Shown here piece by piece: positions 6,210 to 14,228 of a DNA stretch of 24,164 nt. The position numbers were made by a program, and so were the translations under genes. The notes under the pieces were generated by a model. The model did not search any database. It saw only the letters and a program-made list of their open reading frames with translations, and was not told the origin of the DNA. Every line of letters starts with the position of its first letter. Positions within the stretch are counted from its first letter, which is position 1. The stretch is from a virus. The DNA lies in the IMG/VR virus record IMGVR_UViG_3300027770_000250, positions 1-24,164 of that record; one strand, given 5' to 3'.

Positions 6210-7229
6210 TTATATTGACCAATCAACAGTTCGTGCAGGGTATCCATCAAAATTTGAGAAAGAAAACACTTCCTCAAGACAGATTCTATCCATGTCCTTG
6301 GCTTTAAGCCAGTAGGAACCTTTAGGTTCACCGAAATTGCCTGGCGGGGTTCCATGAGCATTACCCCATGAATTTTGAATCAAAAAGATTAAACCAAAAT
6401 CTGGATGGGTGGTAAACCCTAAACATGACTGCTGATGGCCCCAGCTTTGATTCCTTGAGGCTAATTGAACAGCAGGGGTTCCAGATGGTTTAATCTTAAT
6501 ATCGCTAAATCCCCACCAAGACGAGGCTATAGTGACAGGGTATCCATGCGATAAAGCTTGTTTAACTTCATCACTATTTTTAAGTTTTGAAGTGCTTTGA
6601 ACCTTGAACTTATGGGCTGAACTAGAAAGGTCAACAGGTGGCTTATCGCCATTTGACCAAGAGGTTTCTGCTGATGCTCCAAAAGTCCATGACCCATCTT
6701 GCTCTTTGATGGGTTGCGGGCAATTTTCATCAATAGGGGGGCAACCATCTTCATGGAGAGATTCAGCCATTGAACTACCAAAAGACCCTTCTCCTGTTCC
6801 ATGCAATCCACCACGCTTACGAGATTGACCATAGTTATAAAGAATGAATGGAATCCTCCATTCCTCAAAATCTTGTCTTTGGCTAATGATTTCAACTGCT
6901 TGCAGGGTTGCCATTACTGCCAATGCACCATGACCTACGCATGAACCAGTTTTCTGATCCCAAGGAAAGAATTCGTATTTAGCAGCTTGATTCACCACCT
7001 TGTACAAAAGTGATTCTTTCAGATCCAATGGAGGGCCAGCGATTTGAAAAGGAACTAACTTTGCGTTGAACTTGTCTTGAAGTTCTTGAGGTTGCGATTC
7101 AATTGGTAGCCACCCAAATTTGCTAGATGGCATTTCGGGTTCTACTACTGGTGGTTCTACTGGTGGTGTGGGTGGAACTATTGGGTTATTTTTTCTTTCG
7201 CCAAACTTAGGTTGGTTTTCCATGCTCAT
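6210..7229 (-). CDS. Papain-like (C1 family) cysteine peptidase
   Basis: This encodes 339 residues from an ATG overlapping the previous stop as ATGA. The catalytic set of the C1 fold is complete and in order: Q92 in DQKTGSCVGHG with the nucleophile C97, H265 in SWGHQQSC, and N286 in QNSWG. A Pro-rich linker at residues 16-33 precedes the domain. There is no obvious signal peptide or cleavable propeptide, and the insert between C97 and H265 (including WRIPFILYNYG and GSFGSSM) is typical of bacterial members. The context is two membrane proteins, secreted proteins and no recognisable muramidase or amidase. It could therefore cut peptide cross-links or the proteinaceous envelope at lysis, or act as a virion-borne peptidase. 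The activity is well supported; the target is inference. Confidence 0.85.
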   Translation of the reverse strand: MSMENQPKFGERKNNPIVPPTPPVEPPVVEPEMPSSKFGWLPIESQPQELQDKFNAKLVPFQIAGPPLDLKESLLYKVVNQAAKYEFFPWDQKTGSCVGHGALAVMATLQAVEIISQRQDFEEWRIPFILYNYGQSRKRGGLHGTGEGSFGSSMAESLHEDGCPPIDENCPQPIKEQDGSWTFGASAETSWSNGDKPPVDLSSSAHKFKVQSTSKLKNSDEVKQALSHGYPVTIASSWWGFSDIKIKPSGTPAVQLASRNQSWGHQQSCLGFTTHPDFGLIFLIQNSWGNAHGTPPGNFGEPKGSYWLKAKDMDRICLEEVFSFSNFDGYPARTVDWSI

Positions 7230-7864
7230 TGCTTTAATTCCTTTGCAATTAAATTGAATTCGTTAGTAAGAAGATCCCTGAGTTTTTGATCAAGCTTTAA
7301 CGAGGCATCCTTGGGAAGTCTTTCGTTAAGCCTTTTTCCAATTACATCTCTAAGCTTGGCAAGTTCGTTTTCCATGAATTGTTTATTGATAGTTGCCTTT
7401 GCTGCCTTGAAAATATCTGTAAGAAATTCGTAGTCGTTTTTCTGACACTCTTTTGCAAGTTCTTCGTAAAACATAGACAACCACTTTACTTGATCCTTAT
7501 CTTCTTTTGCTGCTGCTGCTTTGATGTCGCTATCAGGATTTACTGGTGGTGCGGGCGGGATGGGAGCGGGTTCATCGCCAATCACAACAGATGTAAACGC
7601 TGGATCGGATGGGCCAAATCCGTCACCTACATAAGCAAACAATCGATATACACCTGTGATCTGCGAGGTGACTACCAGAGTCTTGGAGTCCTTCAGCAGA
7701 TCCACAGGGAAAATATTCAAACCTTTATCGATTGAAACCCATTTTACAAACTTAGATTCAGTCTTTGCTGGAACGCTTATAAAAGCTCCTGGTTGGCCAG
7801 AAACCTTTAACGGAAGTTCTATGGTGGGAATTTGAAGAAACACTAAAAAAAGAATGTTAATCAT
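7226..7864 (-). CDS. Exported or anchored protein: beta domain, Pro-rich linker, helical tail
   Basis: This encodes 212 residues. The ATG overlaps the HNH stop codon as ATGA, and GGAAG lies upstream. The first 12 residues (MINILFLVFLQI) form a hydrophobic leader or anchor. Residues about 22-97 look like a small beta-sandwich, with GVYRLFAYVGDGFGPSDP and VVIGDEP. A Pro-rich linker at 98-110 follows, then a helical, Lys-rich C-terminal half. The pattern 'KWVxxDxGLxxFPxxxLKDSKxxVVxS...GxYRLxAYxGDxxGPSDP' resembles proteins I recall from planctomycete genomes. It overlaps the peptidase gene by four bases, so the two are translationally coupled. A spanin-like or envelope role at lysis is possible but unproven. 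Confidence 0.7.
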   Translation of the reverse strand: MINILFLVFLQIPTIELPLKVSGQPGAFISVPAKTESKFVKWVSIDKGLNIFPVDLLKDSKTLVVTSQITGVYRLFAYVGDGFGPSDPAFTSVVIGDEPAPIPPAPPVNPDSDIKAAAAKEDKDQVKWLSMFYEELAKECQKNDYEFLTDIFKAAKATINKQFMENELAKLRDVIGKRLNERLPKDASLKLDQKLRDLLTNEFNLIAKELKQ

Positions 7865-8112
7865 GGTCGCTTCCTTATTTTTTCAGCCATTATCCTACAG
7901 TCAGATAAACAAGTTGGGTTATATGAACACCAGTTTTTGAGATGACCCAAAAGCAGATGACAAATTTTGCACAAAGTTGCCATGTTTTCCTGATCATATT
8001 CCCCCTCTGGATACAGCGAATATGGGATCAGATGGTGTACTTGGAGCTTTTTGGGATCGTCTTCAAGGCAAGCTATACATCTAGGATTCTTCTTGATGTA
8101 CTCGTTTCGCAC
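7861..8112 (-). CDS. HNH endonuclease, small
   Basis: This encodes 83 residues from a GTG. The zinc and active-site pattern is clear: C12-x2-C15 (PRCIAC), H26-H27 (LQVHHLIPYS), N43 (QENMATLC), and C48-x2-C51-H52 (CKICH), with H57 a possible final HNH histidine. In phages such proteins often assist DNA packaging or act as homing nucleases. Here the gene lies in the lysis-type cassette, far from any terminase in this window. The frame is open upstream of the GTG and would add R-G-S-V-W-G-K, matching the usual 'W.kvR' lead-in of HNH proteins, but no ATG, GTG or TTG lies in that stretch before an upstream stop. The true start is therefore uncertain. Confidence 0.85.
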   Translation of the reverse strand: MRNEYIKKNPRCIACLEDDPKKLQVHHLIPYSLYPEGEYDQENMATLCKICHLLLGHLKNWCSYNPTCLSDCRIMAEKIRKRP

Positions 8113-8131
8113 TTTTCCCCAAACCGATCCC

Positions 8132-8452
8132 CTACAATAAAAAAAGCGAAATCAGTATCTTAAGACCAATCTTCAAAATGTTTGCCCAAGGCAGCTTCCG
8201 CTTTTCGTCAGAGTCAGGAGAATTTTCGATTATTAATGCCTGTTCGAGACAAGCTGCAAAGTCTTCCATATCAAGTTCTTGGCCATCGTTAAAGATAGGC
8301 TTTTCATCAGAAATAGCTTGATCAGCAGCGTAGCCCACAATGTTCCAAAGTGCTTGAGCAAATTCTTTTGTACCTACATCTTGTTTACCCCTGATCTTAT
8401 CAATCACAAGGGTAAAAGAATCCATAGGCAGAGATTCAGGGAACTTAATCAT
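8132..8452 (-). CDS. Small protein with a C-terminal membrane segment
   Basis: This encodes 106 residues. The ATG overlaps the end of the preceding gene by eight bases (ATGATTAA), with AAGGAAGC upstream. The first 80 residues are soluble and acidic, including ELDMEDFAACLEQALIIEN. A basic KRK precedes a C-terminal hydrophobic helix at about residues 88-106 (PWANILKIGLKILISLFLL), as in tail-anchored proteins. Coupling to a one-helix protein upstream suggests the two act together in lysis, but this is positional reasoning. I do not recognise the family. Confidence 0.65.
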   Translation of the reverse strand: MIKFPESLPMDSFTLVIDKIRGKQDVGTKEFAQALWNIVGYAADQAISDEKPIFNDGQELDMEDFAACLEQALIIENSPDSDEKRKLPWANILKIGLKILISLFLL

Positions 8453-8717
8453 GTTTTGCTTCCTTTTTTAGAATCCTAGTGTAATTCAAAACCTCTGTCA
8501 AAATCTTCAAGCTTTCCGCTTGAGCCTTGGCTACCTCGCCAATAGAACCTTCCAATCTATCTATAAATAACATATGTCTCTGGTGCAAGGGAAGTATAAT
8601 ATTTTGGCCCAACCAACTAAAACCCTTATACACCACCCATAATAGAAAAACTAAACAACTTAAAGTAACTCCGAATCGTTCAAAAATGTCTACGATATTT
8701 AAGTCTGCAAACATCAT
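8445..8717 (-). CDS. Putative one-helix holin-like membrane protein
   Basis: This encodes 90 residues. I start at ATG 8717 because GGAG sits nine bases upstream; a TTG at 8732 opens the frame further, but it and the ATG at 8726 overlap or precede that ribosome binding site. One hydrophobic helix spans about residues 15-38 (FGVTLSCLVFLLWVVYKGF). It is followed by a long charged amphipathic helix (HMLFIDRLEGSIGEVAKAQ onward) with a basic end. Size and layout resemble small holins with one membrane span and a cytoplasmic coiled coil. It is first in the cassette that holds the peptidase. A structural helper role cannot be excluded. Confidence 0.6.
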   Translation of the reverse strand: MMFADLNIVDIFERFGVTLSCLVFLLWVVYKGFSWLGQNIILPLHQRHMLFIDRLEGSIGEVAKAQAESLKILTEVLNYTRILKKEAKHD

Positions 8718-8786
8718 TTGAATCATCTCCAATAAATAAACATTCTAGCATTTATGGCTACAAATTGAAATAGTATTTCACCATGT

Positions 8787-9149
8787 TTACACCTGTGCCT
8801 TAAGTAATTTTCGGATCGCTTTAATTTCGGCTCTGGTTAGAAAGTTATCCTCTTGCTCTGCGTCACGCTGATCCTTGTCGGCTTTGCGTTTCGCTTTTTC
8901 CTCTACGCTGATATCTTTGACTTTGGTTTTCACTGTCCATTTGCCCTTCACCTTCTGCGGTGGTTGCACTTCTGTGTCTTGCGTGAGGTAGTCGGTCTGC
9001 GGTGTGTCCTCAATTTCCACAAGGACATAGGTGCTGCCTTCAATCTCGCCACCCTGCCAGCCATCACCGAAAGAGGTTTGCGGATGGTCTCGCTGTGGAT
9101 AGGATGGAAACTCTAGGATCGTGTCACCGTTTATTTTTGCGTATTGCAT
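8787..9149 (-). CDS. Putative tail fibre assembly or fibre-associated protein
   Basis: This encodes 120 residues from an ATG three bases after the propeller stop, with GGAG about eight bases upstream. The N-terminal half has beta-like segments (GDTILEFPSYPQRDHPQTS, STYVLVEIEDTPQTD). The middle, VQPPQKVKGKWTVKTKV, resembles the '..P....G.W...w.V.d' stretch of small phage fibre chaperones. The C-terminus is a charged helix (VEEKAKRKADKDQRDAEQ) ending in KAIRKLLKAQV. A short gene directly after a fibre or adhesin gene is the normal place for such a chaperone. Hand-counted GC over 8821-9120 is about 50%, higher than in the neighbouring fibre genes, so it may have arrived together with the propeller gene. 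Confidence 0.55.
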   Translation of the reverse strand: MQYAKINGDTILEFPSYPQRDHPQTSFGDGWQGGEIEGSTYVLVEIEDTPQTDYLTQDTEVQPPQKVKGKWTVKTKVKDISVEEKAKRKADKDQRDAEQEDNFLTRAEIKAIRKLLKAQV

Positions 9150-9152
9150 GGG

Positions 9153-10160
9153 TTAGCTCCGAGTGAAGATTGAGACAGTGCTAGAACTGTAATTAGATGC
9201 GTAGACATTGGCACCGTCTGCGGAAATACAGATATGGGAAGTTGCAGTTCCAGCAGCAATCGTAGTGGTTCCGCTTAAAGCGCCTGTGCTGGTATTGCGA
9301 GTGAAAATTGAAACTGTGTTAGAGGTCTGATTTGTTGCATAAACACTCAGCCCATCCGCAGAAATGCAACTTTGAGTTCCTCCAGACCCAAGGGGTATCG
9401 TAGTGGTTCCGCTTAAAGCGCCTGTCGTGGTATTGCGAGTGAAAATTGCGCAGGCGGAGTCTTTGGCTACATATACATTCTTGCCATCCGCAGAAATGCA
9501 AAGTCCTACAGGTGAAGAAGCAGCAGCAATCGTAGTGGTTCCGCTTAAAGCGCCTGTGCTGGTATTGCGAGTGAAAATTGAAACTGTGCCGGCACCTCCG
9601 TTAGATGCGTAGACGCTCGCACCATCGGCCGAAATGCAAATACCACCCGGCCTAGACCCAGCAGCAATCGAAGTGGTTCCGCTTAAAGCGCCTGTGCTGG
9701 TATTGCGAGTAAAGATTGAGACTGTGTTGGTAGTCCAATTAGGGGTATACACGCTCGCACCATCCGCAGAAATGCAAATATCTCTTGGCCCTGTCGCTGT
9801 GGCAATCGTAGTGGTTCCGCTTAAAGCGCCTGTTGTGGTATTGCGAGTAAAGATTCTGGCCGTGTTGTTGTTTACATTTGTTGCGTAGACGCTCGCACCA
9901 TCCGCAGAAATGCAAATACCCCAGAGGTTGATTCCAGCAGCAATTGAAGTGGTTCCACTTAACGCTCCTGTGCTGGTATTGCGAGTGAAAATTGAAACTG
10001 TGCCGCTGGTGTAATTAGCTGTATAAACATTTTTACCATCCGCAGAAATGCAAATGCCTCTAGGGTTGGTGCCGGTGGCAATGGTAGTTGTACCGCTTAA
10101 TGTAGGAACATAAACTACTGGCCCCCTTGAAACACCCATGATTTTTCTAGAGATTGGCAT
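9153..10160 (-). CDS. Seven-bladed YVTN/lactonase-like beta-propeller protein
   Basis: This encodes 335 residues. I chose ATG 10160, which overlaps the previous stop as TAATG; a longer open frame to 10436 runs antisense-like through the end of the upstream fibre gene. Seven units of about 46 residues repeat the pattern 'GICISADGxxVYxxN...TVSIFTRNTSTGALSGTTTIA'. The protein starts mid-unit (VVYVPTLSGTTTIATG) and ends at SIFTRS, so the first and last strands would complete one blade, the usual 'velcro' closure of a seven-bladed propeller. The repeats match the YVTN and 6-phosphogluconolactonase-like pattern, but I claim no enzyme activity. Its place among fibre genes points to a binding role, perhaps as a tail-tip adhesin. 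There is no signal peptide. Confidence 0.85.
   Translation of the reverse strand: MPISRKIMGVSRGPVVYVPTLSGTTTIATGTNPRGICISADGKNVYTANYTSGTVSIFTRNTSTGALSGTTSIAAGINLWGICISADGASVYATNVNNNTARIFTRNTTTGALSGTTTIATATGPRDICISADGASVYTPNWTTNTVSIFTRNTSTGALSGTTSIAAGSRPGGICISADGASVYASNGGAGTVSIFTRNTSTGALSGTTTIAAASSPVGLCISADGKNVYVAKDSACAIFTRNTTTGALSGTTTIPLGSGGTQSCISADGLSVYATNQTSNTVSIFTRNTSTGALSGTTTIAAGTATSHICISADGANVYASNYSSSTVSIFTRS
9156..10130 (-). repeat. Seven tandem 138-bp propeller units
   Basis: On the plus strand the marker GTAGTGGTTCCGCTTAAAGC, or a close variant, recurs at 9262, 9400, 9532, 9670, 9808, 9946 and 10084. Spacings are 138, 132, 138, 138, 138 and 138 bp; the short one is missing two codons. 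The outer four or five copies are nearly identical over the central 50-60 bases. Confidence 0.92.
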
Positions 10161-11734
10161 TAGAAATTCTGGCCTCCAATCATGGCATACCAAGTTGTAC
10201 CGCCATCCCATGTGGTCAAAACAAAGATGTCTATTTTTGCACTCGTAGATGTCAGAGTTGGAGCAGTACCTGCTGGCCACTTTACCGCTGCTGGCCATGT
10301 TACTGCTCGAGCCGTTCCATCTGCGGTGAATGCAAGGGTCAAACCATATGCGGTTCCTGTGGTCGGAATATTGCTGAAGGTAATGCTGGTGATAGCTGCA
10401 TTCAGCGAGACATGAAACACATTCCCCAAGGCACAATTCAAGGCTAACACCCCTGCCGAGATTGCTGGTGCGGTTTGCTTTTCATTTAGTCCGGTAATCG
10501 TTGGGGTTGTTAATGCTGCTGAAGCTGCAAGTCCAGTAGCACTTCCAGTTAATGAAGCTGTAATTGTACCAGCGGAAAAGTTGCCAGAAGCATCTCTTTG
10601 AACTACATAAGAAGCAGTATTTGCACTAGCTGCATTAATCCCAATTGTACCTGTTCCAGTTATTGTTCCACCTGTAATTGGTGAAGTGGTTGCAATAGAT
10701 GTAACAGATCCAGTTCCGTAAGCAGTCGTATCTAAGGAAAATGTTCCCGCTGCTGTCATCTTGACAAACGAAGCAGAGGCATAAGTTAACCCAGATAAAG
10801 AAGTTAAATTAGTAGACGAAGCTTGCCCACCTAGCCCGCTTAAAGTGTACGCTGGAATGTTAAGAGTATTTGTGACTAAAGTGGCAGATCCACTTGAGCC
10901 AGTTGTAGTTAAACTGGTGATTCTGTTTGTATAAGCGGTATCCCAATTTGTTTGGGAAGTTGTAGTTGGAATTGAATAACCAGCAGTCAAAGTTACTGCT
11001 AAAGTTCCTGATGCTGTTATTGGGGTTCCTGTTACAGATAACCCTGTTGGAACTGTAATTGCTACTGAAGTAACTGTACCTGTTGTTGATGAAGTTCCAG
11101 CACCAATAGCAGTTCTAAAATCAGCAGCGTTTAATGCAGTAACTGTGTTATCTAAGTTAAATCTCGGGAATGTAACCGCAGTTGGATTTGTGAGGGTAAA
11201 CAGGTTACCGCCTACAGTGGTTGCTCCTAAACTTGTTCTTCCTGTTGAAGCTGTTAATCCTGTTGAACCACCATTCCATTGCAAGTAATTTGAATAAGCG
11301 GTATCCCAGTTCCCTTGGGAAGCGGTTGTTGGGATTGAATAACCAGTATTAAAGGTTACTGCTAATGTTCCAGTTGTTGTAACAGGATTTCCACTTACCA
11401 GCAAACCAGTAGGAACAGACATATCAACAGATGTAACAGTTCCAGAACCACCACCACTACCATTACTTGCAGCAGTTATTCTTCCTTCAGCATTAACAGT
11501 AATATTTGCATTAGTGTAAGATGCAGCAGTAACAGCGGTTGCACTTAACTGAGAATTAGATACTGTTCCGGTATGATCAGAAAATGCTAAAGATGAAACC
11601 AAAACGCTTGCATTCCCTGCTGCATTTCCAATCCATATCTTGCCATCTGCTGCATTTACTCCTACTTCACCGCTAGATAAAGTAGGAGTATTTGAAGCTG
11701 TATAAGATCGCTTTGGTTTAATGGTATTAGCCAT
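10160..11734 (-). CDS. Modular tail fibre protein with a phage C-terminal beta domain
   Basis: This encodes 524 residues from an ATG overlapping the previous stop (TAATG). The N-terminus (NTIKPKRSYTASNTPTLSSG, then GKIWIGNAAG) is the fibre module shared with the two upstream genes. Two copies of a 'TSVxxxVPTGLxVxGxPxTxxGTLAVT...GYSIPTTxSQxNWDTAY' unit follow, with other Ser/Thr/Gly-rich segments. The last 100 residues (VFHVSLNAAITSITFSNIP, VTWPAAVKWPAGTAPTLTS, TTWDGGTTWYAMIGGQNF) form a beta domain that I know from many phage fibres. The protein is virion-associated and probably part of a trimeric fibre. The stop overlaps the start of the propeller gene. Confidence 0.85.
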   Translation of the reverse strand: MANTIKPKRSYTASNTPTLSSGEVGVNAADGKIWIGNAAGNASVLVSSLAFSDHTGTVSNSQLSATAVTAASYTNANITVNAEGRITAASNGSGGGSGTVTSVDMSVPTGLLVSGNPVTTTGTLAVTFNTGYSIPTTASQGNWDTAYSNYLQWNGGSTGLTASTGRTSLGATTVGGNLFTLTNPTAVTFPRFNLDNTVTALNAADFRTAIGAGTSSTTGTVTSVAITVPTGLSVTGTPITASGTLAVTLTAGYSIPTTTSQTNWDTAYTNRITSLTTTGSSGSATLVTNTLNIPAYTLSGLGGQASSTNLTSLSGLTYASASFVKMTAAGTFSLDTTAYGTGSVTSIATTSPITGGTITGTGTIGINAASANTASYVVQRDASGNFSAGTITASLTGSATGLAASAALTTPTITGLNEKQTAPAISAGVLALNCALGNVFHVSLNAAITSITFSNIPTTGTAYGLTLAFTADGTARAVTWPAAVKWPAGTAPTLTSTSAKIDIFVLTTWDGGTTWYAMIGGQNF

Positions 11735-12366
11735 TAAAATGTACCCCCATCGATGATGATGCCAGAGCCTAGTGCCGTTGCACTTAGCACCACAGTGCCG
11801 TTGATGTAGTAGCTTTTACCAGAAGCCAAATCCATATGTTCAGAAGATGTCCACGAGTCGGTAGCATTGATCCAACTAAAAGTCTTGGTTGTAGTTCCGA
11901 GCAAGGAAATACCACCACCATCAGCAGTTGTATCAGTTGGAGTTGCGACATTACCAAGAGTTATGTTTTTGTCAGCCACATCAATTTGTGTGGAGTTAAT
12001 CGTTGTAACTGTTCCATTGACGGTCAAATCTCCCGATAATATAAGAGAAGTTCCAGTCGCATCACCAATATCAGGGGTGGTTAATTCTGGTGAATCTTGA
12101 ACAACAAATACATCTCCAGTACCAGTCTGAGCAGCAATGCTAGTAACTCCTGCTGTTGCAGTAATTGGGCCAGTAAGATCCGAATAAAAATCCGGCCCAG
12201 CTATTGCAATTACGCTGGTTGCAACTCCAAATCCATCATCACCTAGTCCATAATATAAAACACGGCCAGTTGATGTTTCGTTAAAAGCAAGTTCTGCACT
12301 TGCTAATGTATTTGGCGAACCAACGGAAGAACTTAACCTACGCTTGATACGAATCGTATTAGCCAT
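11734..12366 (-). CDS. Short tail fibre protein
   Basis: This encodes 210 residues from an ATG with a clear AAGGAG upstream. The N-terminal module (NTIRIKRRLSSSVGSPNTL, then SAELAFNETSTGRVLYYG) is of the same kind as in its two neighbours. The stretch GDLTVNGTVTTINSTQIDV, then DKNITLGNVATPTDTTADG, and SWTSSEHMDLASGKSYYING is a very common phage fibre segment, well known from cyanophages and other tailed phages. It ends in IIIDGGTF directly on TAATG, coupling it to the next fibre gene. At this length it may be an adaptor or shaft piece rather than a full fibre. Confidence 0.85.
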   Translation of the reverse strand: MANTIRIKRRLSSSVGSPNTLASAELAFNETSTGRVLYYGLGDDGFGVATSVIAIAGPDFYSDLTGPITATAGVTSIAAQTGTGDVFVVQDSPELTTPDIGDATGTSLILSGDLTVNGTVTTINSTQIDVADKNITLGNVATPTDTTADGGGISLLGTTTKTFSWINATDSWTSSEHMDLASGKSYYINGTVVLSATALGSGIIIDGGTF

Positions 12367-12377
12367 GAAAAAACTCC

Positions 12378-14228
12378 TTAAAAGTTACCACCATCCACAA
12401 CATTTGAATTAACCCATTTTTGCGTTGGGGCAAAGTATCTTAACAGTTGCCCATCTGTTTTGCTGGTTATCTGCACATCAGTTAATTGTTCCAATGATGG
12501 TGCAGATGCAACGGCACTAATTGTAACATTACCCGTTGAATTATCTATATTTATTCCAGTACCAGCGATAATAGATGTAACTCCACCACCACTAGCATTA
12601 CCATCAAAAACTAAATGAATGATACCGTTTGAATCCCTTACATAACCTTTTTTATCTGCAACATTAATTGCAAATTCGTTAGTTTCCATATCTCCAGAAG
12701 TTGGGACTGATAATGGGATATATGATCTTTTGGGTTTAACTGGAATTGGAGGATTAGGATTACCAGCATCAGGAGTAAAAAACAATGTATCAGAATTTAC
12801 AGATGTTAAAGTTCCAGAAGTAAAAGTCAAATAAAATGATCCGTAGCCAGTAGCAATCAAATCAGAAAAAGATGCATATCCACCAGAAGCAGTTGCATTT
12901 AATGTTCCTGTTAAAACTGATGAACCAGTTACATCTACTAAAGAAACATCAACAACATCTGTTGCATCTGAAACTAAATCGTCAAGCCAATTTACAATTG
13001 AAATTATTGGTTGGGTAGTTAATAAATTACCTGATAAACCACTAAATGGTTGTTGATAAATAGCCAATGCTATAGGTGTTAAAGTTGCAATTTCATCTGA
13101 ATCTACTTCAGTTAAACCTGTTGAAGTAAATGTTAAATAAAACGATCCAGCACCAGTAAAAACTAAATCAGTAAAAGTTGCATATCCATCTACAGCAGTT
13201 ACTGTTGTTGTTCCTGTTAATGAACCAGAACCATTGACAACAGTTATTGCTACTTCAACATCATTTGTTGCAGTTGGAACTACATCTCCATTTGAATCCA
13301 CTATTTTGATTATTGGTTGCGTTGTAAATGGATCACCAGAAACAACTCCATAAGGCTGAACATCAATTAATAATGCAGTTTGATTAGGCAGAATAAAAGT
13401 AGGAAAAACTGCAATGCCATACGGAACAGATACGACAGCAATTGTTGATGTTCCACTCAACGCACCAGTTGAGATATTTCTGTCAAATATGGATACAGTA
13501 GCACTAGAACTATTTGCTACATAAACAGATGTTCCATCTGCGGAAATGCAAATTCCGTAAGGGCCAGTTCCAGTCGCTATAGTGCTAGTGCCACTTAATG
13601 CTCCTGTGCTAGTATTTCTTGTAAAAATAGAGCAAGTGCTAGATTCGTTATTAACTGCATAAACAGAGTTTCCATCCGCAGAAATACAAATATCATTTGG
13701 AACATTTTCTGTAGCAATTGTTCCACCAGAGGTCAATGCACCAGTACTAATGTTTCTTGTGAAAACCGAGCAAGTATTAGATCCCCTATTTGCAGTATAA
13801 ACAGATGTTCCATCCGCAGAAATGCAAATACCACAAGGGCCAGTTCCAGCAGCAATCGTGCTAGTACCAGACAATGCTCCAGTTGAGATATTTCTGTCAA
13901 ATATGGATACAGTAGCACTAGAACTATTTGCTACATAAACAGATGTTCCATCTGCGGAAATGCAAATTCCGTAAGGGCCAGTTCCAGTCGCTATAGTGCT
14001 AGTGCCACTTAATGCTCCAGTTGAGATATTTCTGTCAAATATGGATACAGTAGCACTTAAATAATTTGTTACATAAACATTTAATCCATCAGGTGATATT
14101 GCAACTCCAATAGGTTGTATGCCAGTCGAAATCGTTGAAGTTCCACTTAATGCACCAGTTGAGATATTTCTGTCAAATATGGACAGACCACCGATGCCCC
14201 CATTATTTACATATACATTTGAAGCCAT
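12378..14228 (-). CDS. Six-unit beta-propeller fused to Ig-like domains and a fibre module
   Basis: This encodes 616 residues from the ATG that overlaps the previous stop (TAATG); another ATG two codons upstream is less likely. Residues 1-278 hold six YVTN-like units (GICISADGTSVYVANSSSAT then VSIFDRNISTGALSGTSTIA). Residues about 290-383 and 390-486 are two Ig-like domains of invasin type, each with 'TTQPIIxIV', 'GYAxFxDL' and 'GSFYLTFTS'. Residues about 496-540 are the PKRSY fibre module that is N-terminal in the next two genes. The C-terminus has LEQLTDVQITSKTDGQLLRY and KWVNSNVVDGGNF, a typical fibre ending. This is a rare order: propeller first, then stalk, then fibre module. A receptor-binding role in the virion is inferred from context. 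Confidence 0.85.
   Translation of the reverse strand: MASNVYVNNGGIGGLSIFDRNISTGALSGTSTISTGIQPIGVAISPDGLNVYVTNYLSATVSIFDRNISTGALSGTSTIATGTGPYGICISADGTSVYVANSSSATVSIFDRNISTGALSGTSTIAAGTGPCGICISADGTSVYTANRGSNTCSVFTRNISTGALTSGGTIATENVPNDICISADGNSVYAVNNESSTCSIFTRNTSTGALSGTSTIATGTGPYGICISADGTSVYVANSSSATVSIFDRNISTGALSGTSTIAVVSVPYGIAVFPTFILPNQTALLIDVQPYGVVSGDPFTTQPIIKIVDSNGDVVPTATNDVEVAITVVNGSGSLTGTTTVTAVDGYATFTDLVFTGAGSFYLTFTSTGLTEVDSDEIATLTPIALAIYQQPFSGLSGNLLTTQPIISIVNWLDDLVSDATDVVDVSLVDVTGSSVLTGTLNATASGGYASFSDLIATGYGSFYLTFTSGTLTSVNSDTLFFTPDAGNPNPPIPVKPKRSYIPLSVPTSGDMETNEFAINVADKKGYVRDSNGIIHLVFDGNASGGGVTSIIAGTGINIDNSTGNVTISAVASAPSLEQLTDVQITSKTDGQLLRYFAPTQKWVNSNVVDGGNF
13400..14225 (-). repeat. Six tandem propeller units of about 138 bp
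   Basis: Six units code for the propeller of the fusion protein. At the DNA level they differ clearly from the units in 9153-10160 (lower GC, other codons), although the protein pattern is similar. This argues that each array has been homogenised separately. Confidence 0.88.
13465..14018 (-). repeat. Identical 140-bp direct repeat pair (13465-13604 and 13879-14018)
   Basis: The two stretches read the same base for base over 140 bp and lie 414 bp apart, exactly three 138-bp units. Both encode a full blade. The intervening units are diverged, so this is a recent copy event (gene conversion or duplication) within the array. Confidence 0.93.

Follow-up and report, generated by a model that had tools for sequence, protein, structure and literature searches.

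A separately encoded seven-bladed YVTN propeller as the proposed exchangeable tip adhesin of a phage tail fibre

The 24,164 bases analysed here (the window) make up an entire IMG/VR virus record, which probably represents part of a genome. At positions 9153–10160 (minus strand) it encodes a stand-alone seven-bladed YVTN propeller of 335 aa, which we propose to be a distal fibre-tip adhesin. The A of this gene's ATG, at 10160, doubles as the last A of the TAA of a 524-aa tail fibre gene (10160–11734, minus strand; PHROG 9017 and 7760, tail fiber protein), such that fibre stop and tip start overlap as TAATG (10158–10162, minus strand). Two elements meet at this junction: the fibre C-terminal domain ending GGTTWYAMIGGQNF (10163–10492, minus strand), the proposed socket for the tip leader, and the leader peptide MPISRKIMGVSRG (residues 1–13 of the propeller protein; 10122–10160, minus strand), the proposed docking plug, which is kept before both YVTN and PLL-like modules. 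The third gene of the cassette encodes 120 aa (8787–9149, minus strand); it is conserved in position and possibly a fibre-assembly helper, with no Pfam match and PHROG 4998 (unknown function) as its sole PHROG match. A sequence-only reading of this DNA had located the propeller between a fibre gene and a putative fibre-assembly gene; the PHROG assignments bear out the fibre half of that statement, and leave the assembly half unproven. The counterpart of the 120-aa gene in Limnohabitans phage DC31 matches PF16778, although its likeness to the window gene is weak (21.9 bits); an identification as Tfa was confirmed neither by Pfam, nor by PHROG, nor by comparison with the DC31 chaperone, and a fibre-assembly role in the window is plausible.

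A blade HMM places seven units in the propeller, starting at residues 23, 69, 115, 161, 207, 251, and 297, with units 1–6 spanning 44–46 aa and unit 7 ending after strand C (unit consensus GTTTIATGxxPxGICISADGxSVYAxNxxSxTVSIFTRNTSTGALS). The repetition is also visible in the DNA as a 138-bp period (5.9 copies, TRF score 713). The protein belongs to the Pfam Lactonase family PF10282 (E 5.8e-38, 131 bits against a curated cutoff of 21.7) and also matches SGL; the Pfam search returned no match to PF05268 (GP38), placing it outside the GP38 sequence family. The seven YVTN/lactonase-like units claimed in the sequence-only reading are thus recovered by HMM, family match, and repeat period alike, and the claimed lack of a signal peptide agrees with our reading of the N-terminus by eye, in which no signal-like hydrophobic stretch was seen. 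Public predicted-structure data hold a 62%-identical homologue labeled ‘COG3391 Uncharacterized conserved protein’.

The AlphaFold2 model of the propeller (18 homologues; mean pLDDT 88.3, pTM 0.86) has seven blades. Residues 21–28 (10077–10100, minus strand) form an outer D strand ahead of the blade 1 A strand and the last strand of the chain is strand C of blade 7, hence the N-terminal strand completes blade 7; this is the ‘velcro’ closure by a half unit that had been anticipated from sequence, and the prediction returned a closed ring of seven blades rather than an open one. Residues 1–13 are disordered in the monomer model, with pLDDT <50 over most of the leader. In VIA-align comparisons, residues ~19–335 align with closed seven-bladed rings at Z 37–40, the top match being 7big (a designed seven-bladed WRAP propeller, Z 40.1), with the archaeal YVTN S-layer protein 1l0q (Z 38.4, 28% identity; phmmer E 3.6e-26) and the 6-phosphogluconolactonase 6nau (Z 37.0) among the other neighbors. 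The closed seven-bladed ring with its N-terminal velcro strand is therefore confirmed at the level of the predicted structure. WRAP-type propellers (2ymu; designed 7big and 7bie) likewise have highly similar blades, although theirs are WD40-type, whereas in the proposed phage adhesin amplification appears to be recurrent and the loops diversified. The window protein shares fold, repeat consensus, and blade number with YVTN/Lactonase propellers (PF10282; 1l0q; 6-phosphogluconolactonase), but unlike these is free-standing in a phage fibre cluster, carries a leader, and has no apparent export signal or evident catalytic site.

Variation among the 18 homologues is concentrated on one face of the ring. 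Entropy is high in the top DA and BC loops (1.41 and 1.71 bits) relative to the bottom AB and CD loops (0.70 and 0.50; permutation p<5e-5), conservation of the AB loop being in part a general property of the propeller fold. Nonsynonymous changes in the two closest pairs are concentrated on the top face (p 7e-4 and 7e-5), where dN exceeds dS (0.09/0.07 and 0.10/0.05); the third closest pair (L078/L094) displays no excess of top-face change. Two blades of one protein resemble each other more (0.677) than do blades in equivalent positions of different proteins (0.636), and the effect of position is slight (0.622); this suggests copying of blades inside the gene, as has been reported for propellers at large (PMC9218822).

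The propeller recurs in other phages together with its neighbors. A blade-pair profile matches 44 loci in IMG/VR, in which a scan with the single propeller protein gave zero matches because patterns taken from loops that vary fail to match. In ~34 contigs from freshwater phages the propeller stands alone and has an MPI leader, and 17 distinct complete versions (including that of the window) comprise 16 with seven units and one with five. All of them immediately follow a fibre gene whose product ends ..W(Y/F)(A/S)M(V/I/T)GGQN(F/L/H), in nearly all cases (the window included) with the one-base TAATG overlap, and on contigs that extend further a 118–120-aa homologue of the window's 120-aa gene comes next. 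The sequence-only reading had looked to these neighbors for its support; the fibre–propeller–120 aa order does recur, and the close homologues sit in fibre clusters rather than solely among unconnected host genes. A more distant homologue (L132, leader MTISRKIMG) is without the 120-aa gene. The five-unit form (L116 and L117, 7737–8531) is a version of the seven-unit propeller of L105, arising either from a two-blade deletion or from assembly collapse; blade counts from metagenomes can err where units are near-identical.

The tail genes that accompany this cassette differ (e.g., L089, L094, L101, and L115 compared with the window and L078), and a match to the propeller family occurs in only 8 of the 45 records whose major capsid protein is related; together these indicate that the propeller is accessory to the phage lineage and linked instead to the fibre end. 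The phages of the exact window family are all uncultured. A phage collection yielded one distant propeller match only and none to the major capsid protein, hence no isolate host can be assigned to the window phage. One contig binned with a Flavipsychrobacter MAG (L197, CAMDNC010000148.1) contains the complete cassette; it is a phage contig or prophage, and provides the only hint, a weak one, of a Bacteroidota host.

We searched for other occupants of this slot at the DNA level, using the fibre-stop/tip-start junction alone and then the leader alone. Both searches returned mostly propeller genes, plus other proteins. Behind the same leader, eight contigs encode proteins with six repeats of the form ..KAIFGYG..TNLVSNxGVVSTDTTGVGTARxxLAAAGYGTD.., a profile of which (A3) matches the Photorhabdus PHL/PLL lectins (5mxe, E 5.4e-13; 6rfz, E 6e-12), a match of moderate weight given that the sequence is repetitive. 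These lectins are seven-bladed propellers (PMC6943638); they resemble the six-repeat module and not the window propeller, and sugar binding by the module is putative. Its count of six is by sequence, the AlphaFold2 model being poor (pLDDT 43). A kelch-like reading of the module was discarded: Pfam gave no kelch match, and the profile search gave PLL lectins. A further type of tip is found in L172, a 242-aa Gly-rich protein that passes the Pfam GP38 cutoff (36.2 bits versus 25) and matches PHROG 2056 ‘tail fiber protein; host specificity’; its junction is similar to that of the window, with a leader (MPIGVARAS) that differs from MPISRKIMGVSRG. The fibre C-terminal domain is homologous ahead of the YVTN, PLL-like, and L172 GP38 tips. 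Within the leader coding sequence pN is 0.14 versus a pS of 0.37, consistent with constraint as a peptide, so that leader conservation exceeds what a recently shared DNA junction would give.

Other arrangements were seen around these slots. PLL-like tips are followed by a conserved 206-aa gene (MPSKLNSEFNYRTQVIGET..; L193:11172–11867, minus strand, and equivalents) in place of a directly adjoining 120-aa gene; the L193 copy has no Pfam match. A second leader class, MISRMLMM.A, also with an overlapping ATG, follows fibres ending FLAFVAGQNL (L122:7869–9209, L138:913–2637, L140:1387–2508) and carries a YVTN propeller (L122) as well as other modules.

The fibre C-terminal domain (alignment A4) extends well beyond this family, with at least 583 relatives in IMG/VR and matches in 361 isolate records. 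Our IMG/VR tip survey covered the best 79 of these at least 583 relatives, behind which lie 67 non-redundant downstream genes. Position 5 is K or R and position 7 or 8 is hydrophobic in 41 of the 67 tips versus 39 among the 919 remaining genes at these loci (p ~1e-32), this strict pattern being missing from 26; acidic residues are absent from positions 5–13 in 65/67 tips versus 406/919 other genes (p 1e-19). Both p-values overstate independence, since the tips are phylogenetically linked. Pfam matches for 47 distinct tips include Gly_rich_2 (8), RCC1 (5), DUF7483 (5), Lactonase (5), and Laminin_G_3 (4), and the surveyed tips also include one WD40-like protein and one with an SBBP beta-propeller repeat. 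The slot has been entered by propellers of several lineages. Isolates contain the same arrangement: in Microcystis phage Mel-JY34 the gene after the fibre overlaps it (TAATG), is Gly-rich, and matches the PHROG tail-fibre family phrog_11439 (as does L172); in Limnohabitans phage DC31 the tip consists of FVAVGxxGxIxTSxDGxxWT repeats and is followed by a PF16778 tail assembly chaperone gene; and Roseobacter phages CRP-603 and CRP-13 have DUF7483 tips that also match a PHROG tail-fibre family.

To our knowledge, it is mainly in the T-even phages that distal adhesins have genes of their own, and these share a single fold (gp38). The gp38 of T2 and S16 (PF05268; 6F45) resembles the window propeller in being a separate gene directly behind the distal fibre gene and in combining a conserved scaffold with hypervariable loops, and in L172 this slot is filled by a member of the GP38 family. 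The two differ in fold (a polyglycine sandwich in gp38, a seven-bladed propeller in the window) and in the size of the attachment part, ~113 residues in gp38 against ~13 in the propeller leader. It is the N-terminal part of T2/S16 gp38 that holds the protein on the end of the gp37 fibre (PMC12892980, PMC9608196), through three short helices in S16 (PMC9608196), and in T2 lacking gene 38 the gp38 of PP01 was functional only after its N-terminal 113 residues had been exchanged for those of T2 (PMC12892980); we propose a like role for the propeller leader. Beta-propellers are present in other proven or putative phage receptor-binding proteins (phi11 RBP, PRD1 P2, and PhiKZ gp131C; PMC4901313), although there the propeller is of another type and serves as one domain, or the head, of a larger protein, whereas that of the window has a separate, exchangeable gene and follows a conserved leader. 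Our literature search found no paper combining YVTN, phage, and tail fiber (mention elsewhere is possible), and within the literature searched we found no precedent for a propeller that has its own gene in a gp38-like slot and can be exchanged for other heads behind a shared leader.

We consider it likely that the propeller is the distal, interchangeable receptor-binding tip of the fibre, occupying a gp38-like slot, with its docking and its position on the virion extrapolated from gene order and from gp38. The gene would then provide a separately encoded tip protein, for which the conserved fibre C-terminal domain would act as socket and the first ~13 tip residues (basic, Met/Ile-containing, and disordered when alone) as plug; the closed propeller behind this plug would cap the fibre as a receptor-binding head, with the DA and BC loops of the top face contacting a structure on the host surface that varies. 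Heads would be swapped by recombination where fibre stop and tip start meet, with plug and socket left in place, and would diversify further through blade copying within the gene; presence of the family in so few of the capsid-related records is to be expected of a swapped adhesin. The sequence-only reading had suggested a tip binding the host surface, an idea now strengthened by the neighbors in ~34 contigs, by the slot held in common with GP38 and PLL-like tips, and by top-face hypervariability. That plug-and-socket attachment is common to many aquatic tailed phages we regard as somewhat favored by the evidence; such a system would pair a fibre domain of ~110 aa with a short, basic, acid-free, often A/G-ended leader, carrying exchangeable heads (YVTN, PLL-like, RCC1, WD40, GP38-type, Gly-rich, or LamG) and undergoing blade copying.

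Translational coupling to the fibre gene would equally suit a folding chaperone that leaves the fibre before or after assembly, given that T4 gp38, encoded in the corresponding position, is released once assembly is complete (PMC12892980, PMC9608196). A chaperone serving a conserved fibre C-terminus should not, however, be hypervariable or replaceable by unrelated folds, and in DC31 a separate PF16778 chaperone comes after the tip gene; we judge this role improbable. The PF10282 and SGL matches, together with 6-phosphogluconolactonases among the structural neighbors, might instead point to an enzyme (a lactonase, or one degrading glycans or signals) acting at the cell surface, either on the fibre or after release. 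Against this, no internal column conserved in one blade only was identified in the 18 homologues (C-terminal S335 alone came up as blade-specific), which speaks against a unique catalytic site; moreover, the most variable part of the protein is the face on which many propellers carry their ligand site, and a GP38 adhesin uses this slot as well. An enzymatic role hence appears quite improbable.

YVTN propellers occur commonly among the surface proteins of cells, as the archaeal S-layer protein 1l0q illustrates, and the gene could in principle be host-derived cargo, such as a decoy or surface-protein mimic, that came to lie in a fibre cluster by chance. Such cargo is highly improbable considering that no signal peptide is apparent, that the best bacterial (GTDB) relatives reach only 50% identity over the blade pair (the phage-like L197 contig aside), and that leader and junction are common to other module types. 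The earlier suggestion of a decoy of a host surface propeller is not supported.

If the tip model is true, a shared plug and socket would explain the exchange of host-range determinants among uncultured aquatic phages, and the receptor-binding gene would become recognizable in many contigs from leader and neighbor alone. The isolates Mel-JY34 (Microcystis), DC31 (Limnohabitans), and the CRP phages (Roseobacter) would then offer test cases. The slot would also be a natural system in which to watch propeller blades amplify under apparent diversifying selection.

The window holds further genes of related interest. In its lysis-side gene block, a 339-aa protein (6210–7229, minus strand) has papain-like motifs (GSCVGHG .. 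QNSWG) and no Pfam match at E 0.1. A second propeller of the same family, overlooked in the sequence-only reading, is encoded at 12378–14228 (minus strand), where five full and two half units are fused to further fibre domains. It would have six blades if closed, a count that we do not take literally given that its units 2 and 5 have the same protein sequence and agree at 97% of their 138 bp of DNA, making assembly collapse possible. At a site corresponding to this second propeller in related phages (L082–L087, ~7572–12809), the fibre that follows one ending YSDGGTW starts MVM(A/S)L.. and its N-terminal domains differ between phages; this may be a second exchange site. All four fibre-type genes of the window (10160, 11734, 12378, and 14228, minus strand) end GG[QNT]-aromatic (GGQNF, GGTF, GGNF, and GGTW), as if every fibre joint reused one kind of C-terminus. 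YVTN-like repeats also occur in a very large phage contig (IMGVR_UViG_3300027782_000025, 274,625 bp; L125, L127, and L130), several proteins of which have between 6 and 14 such units.
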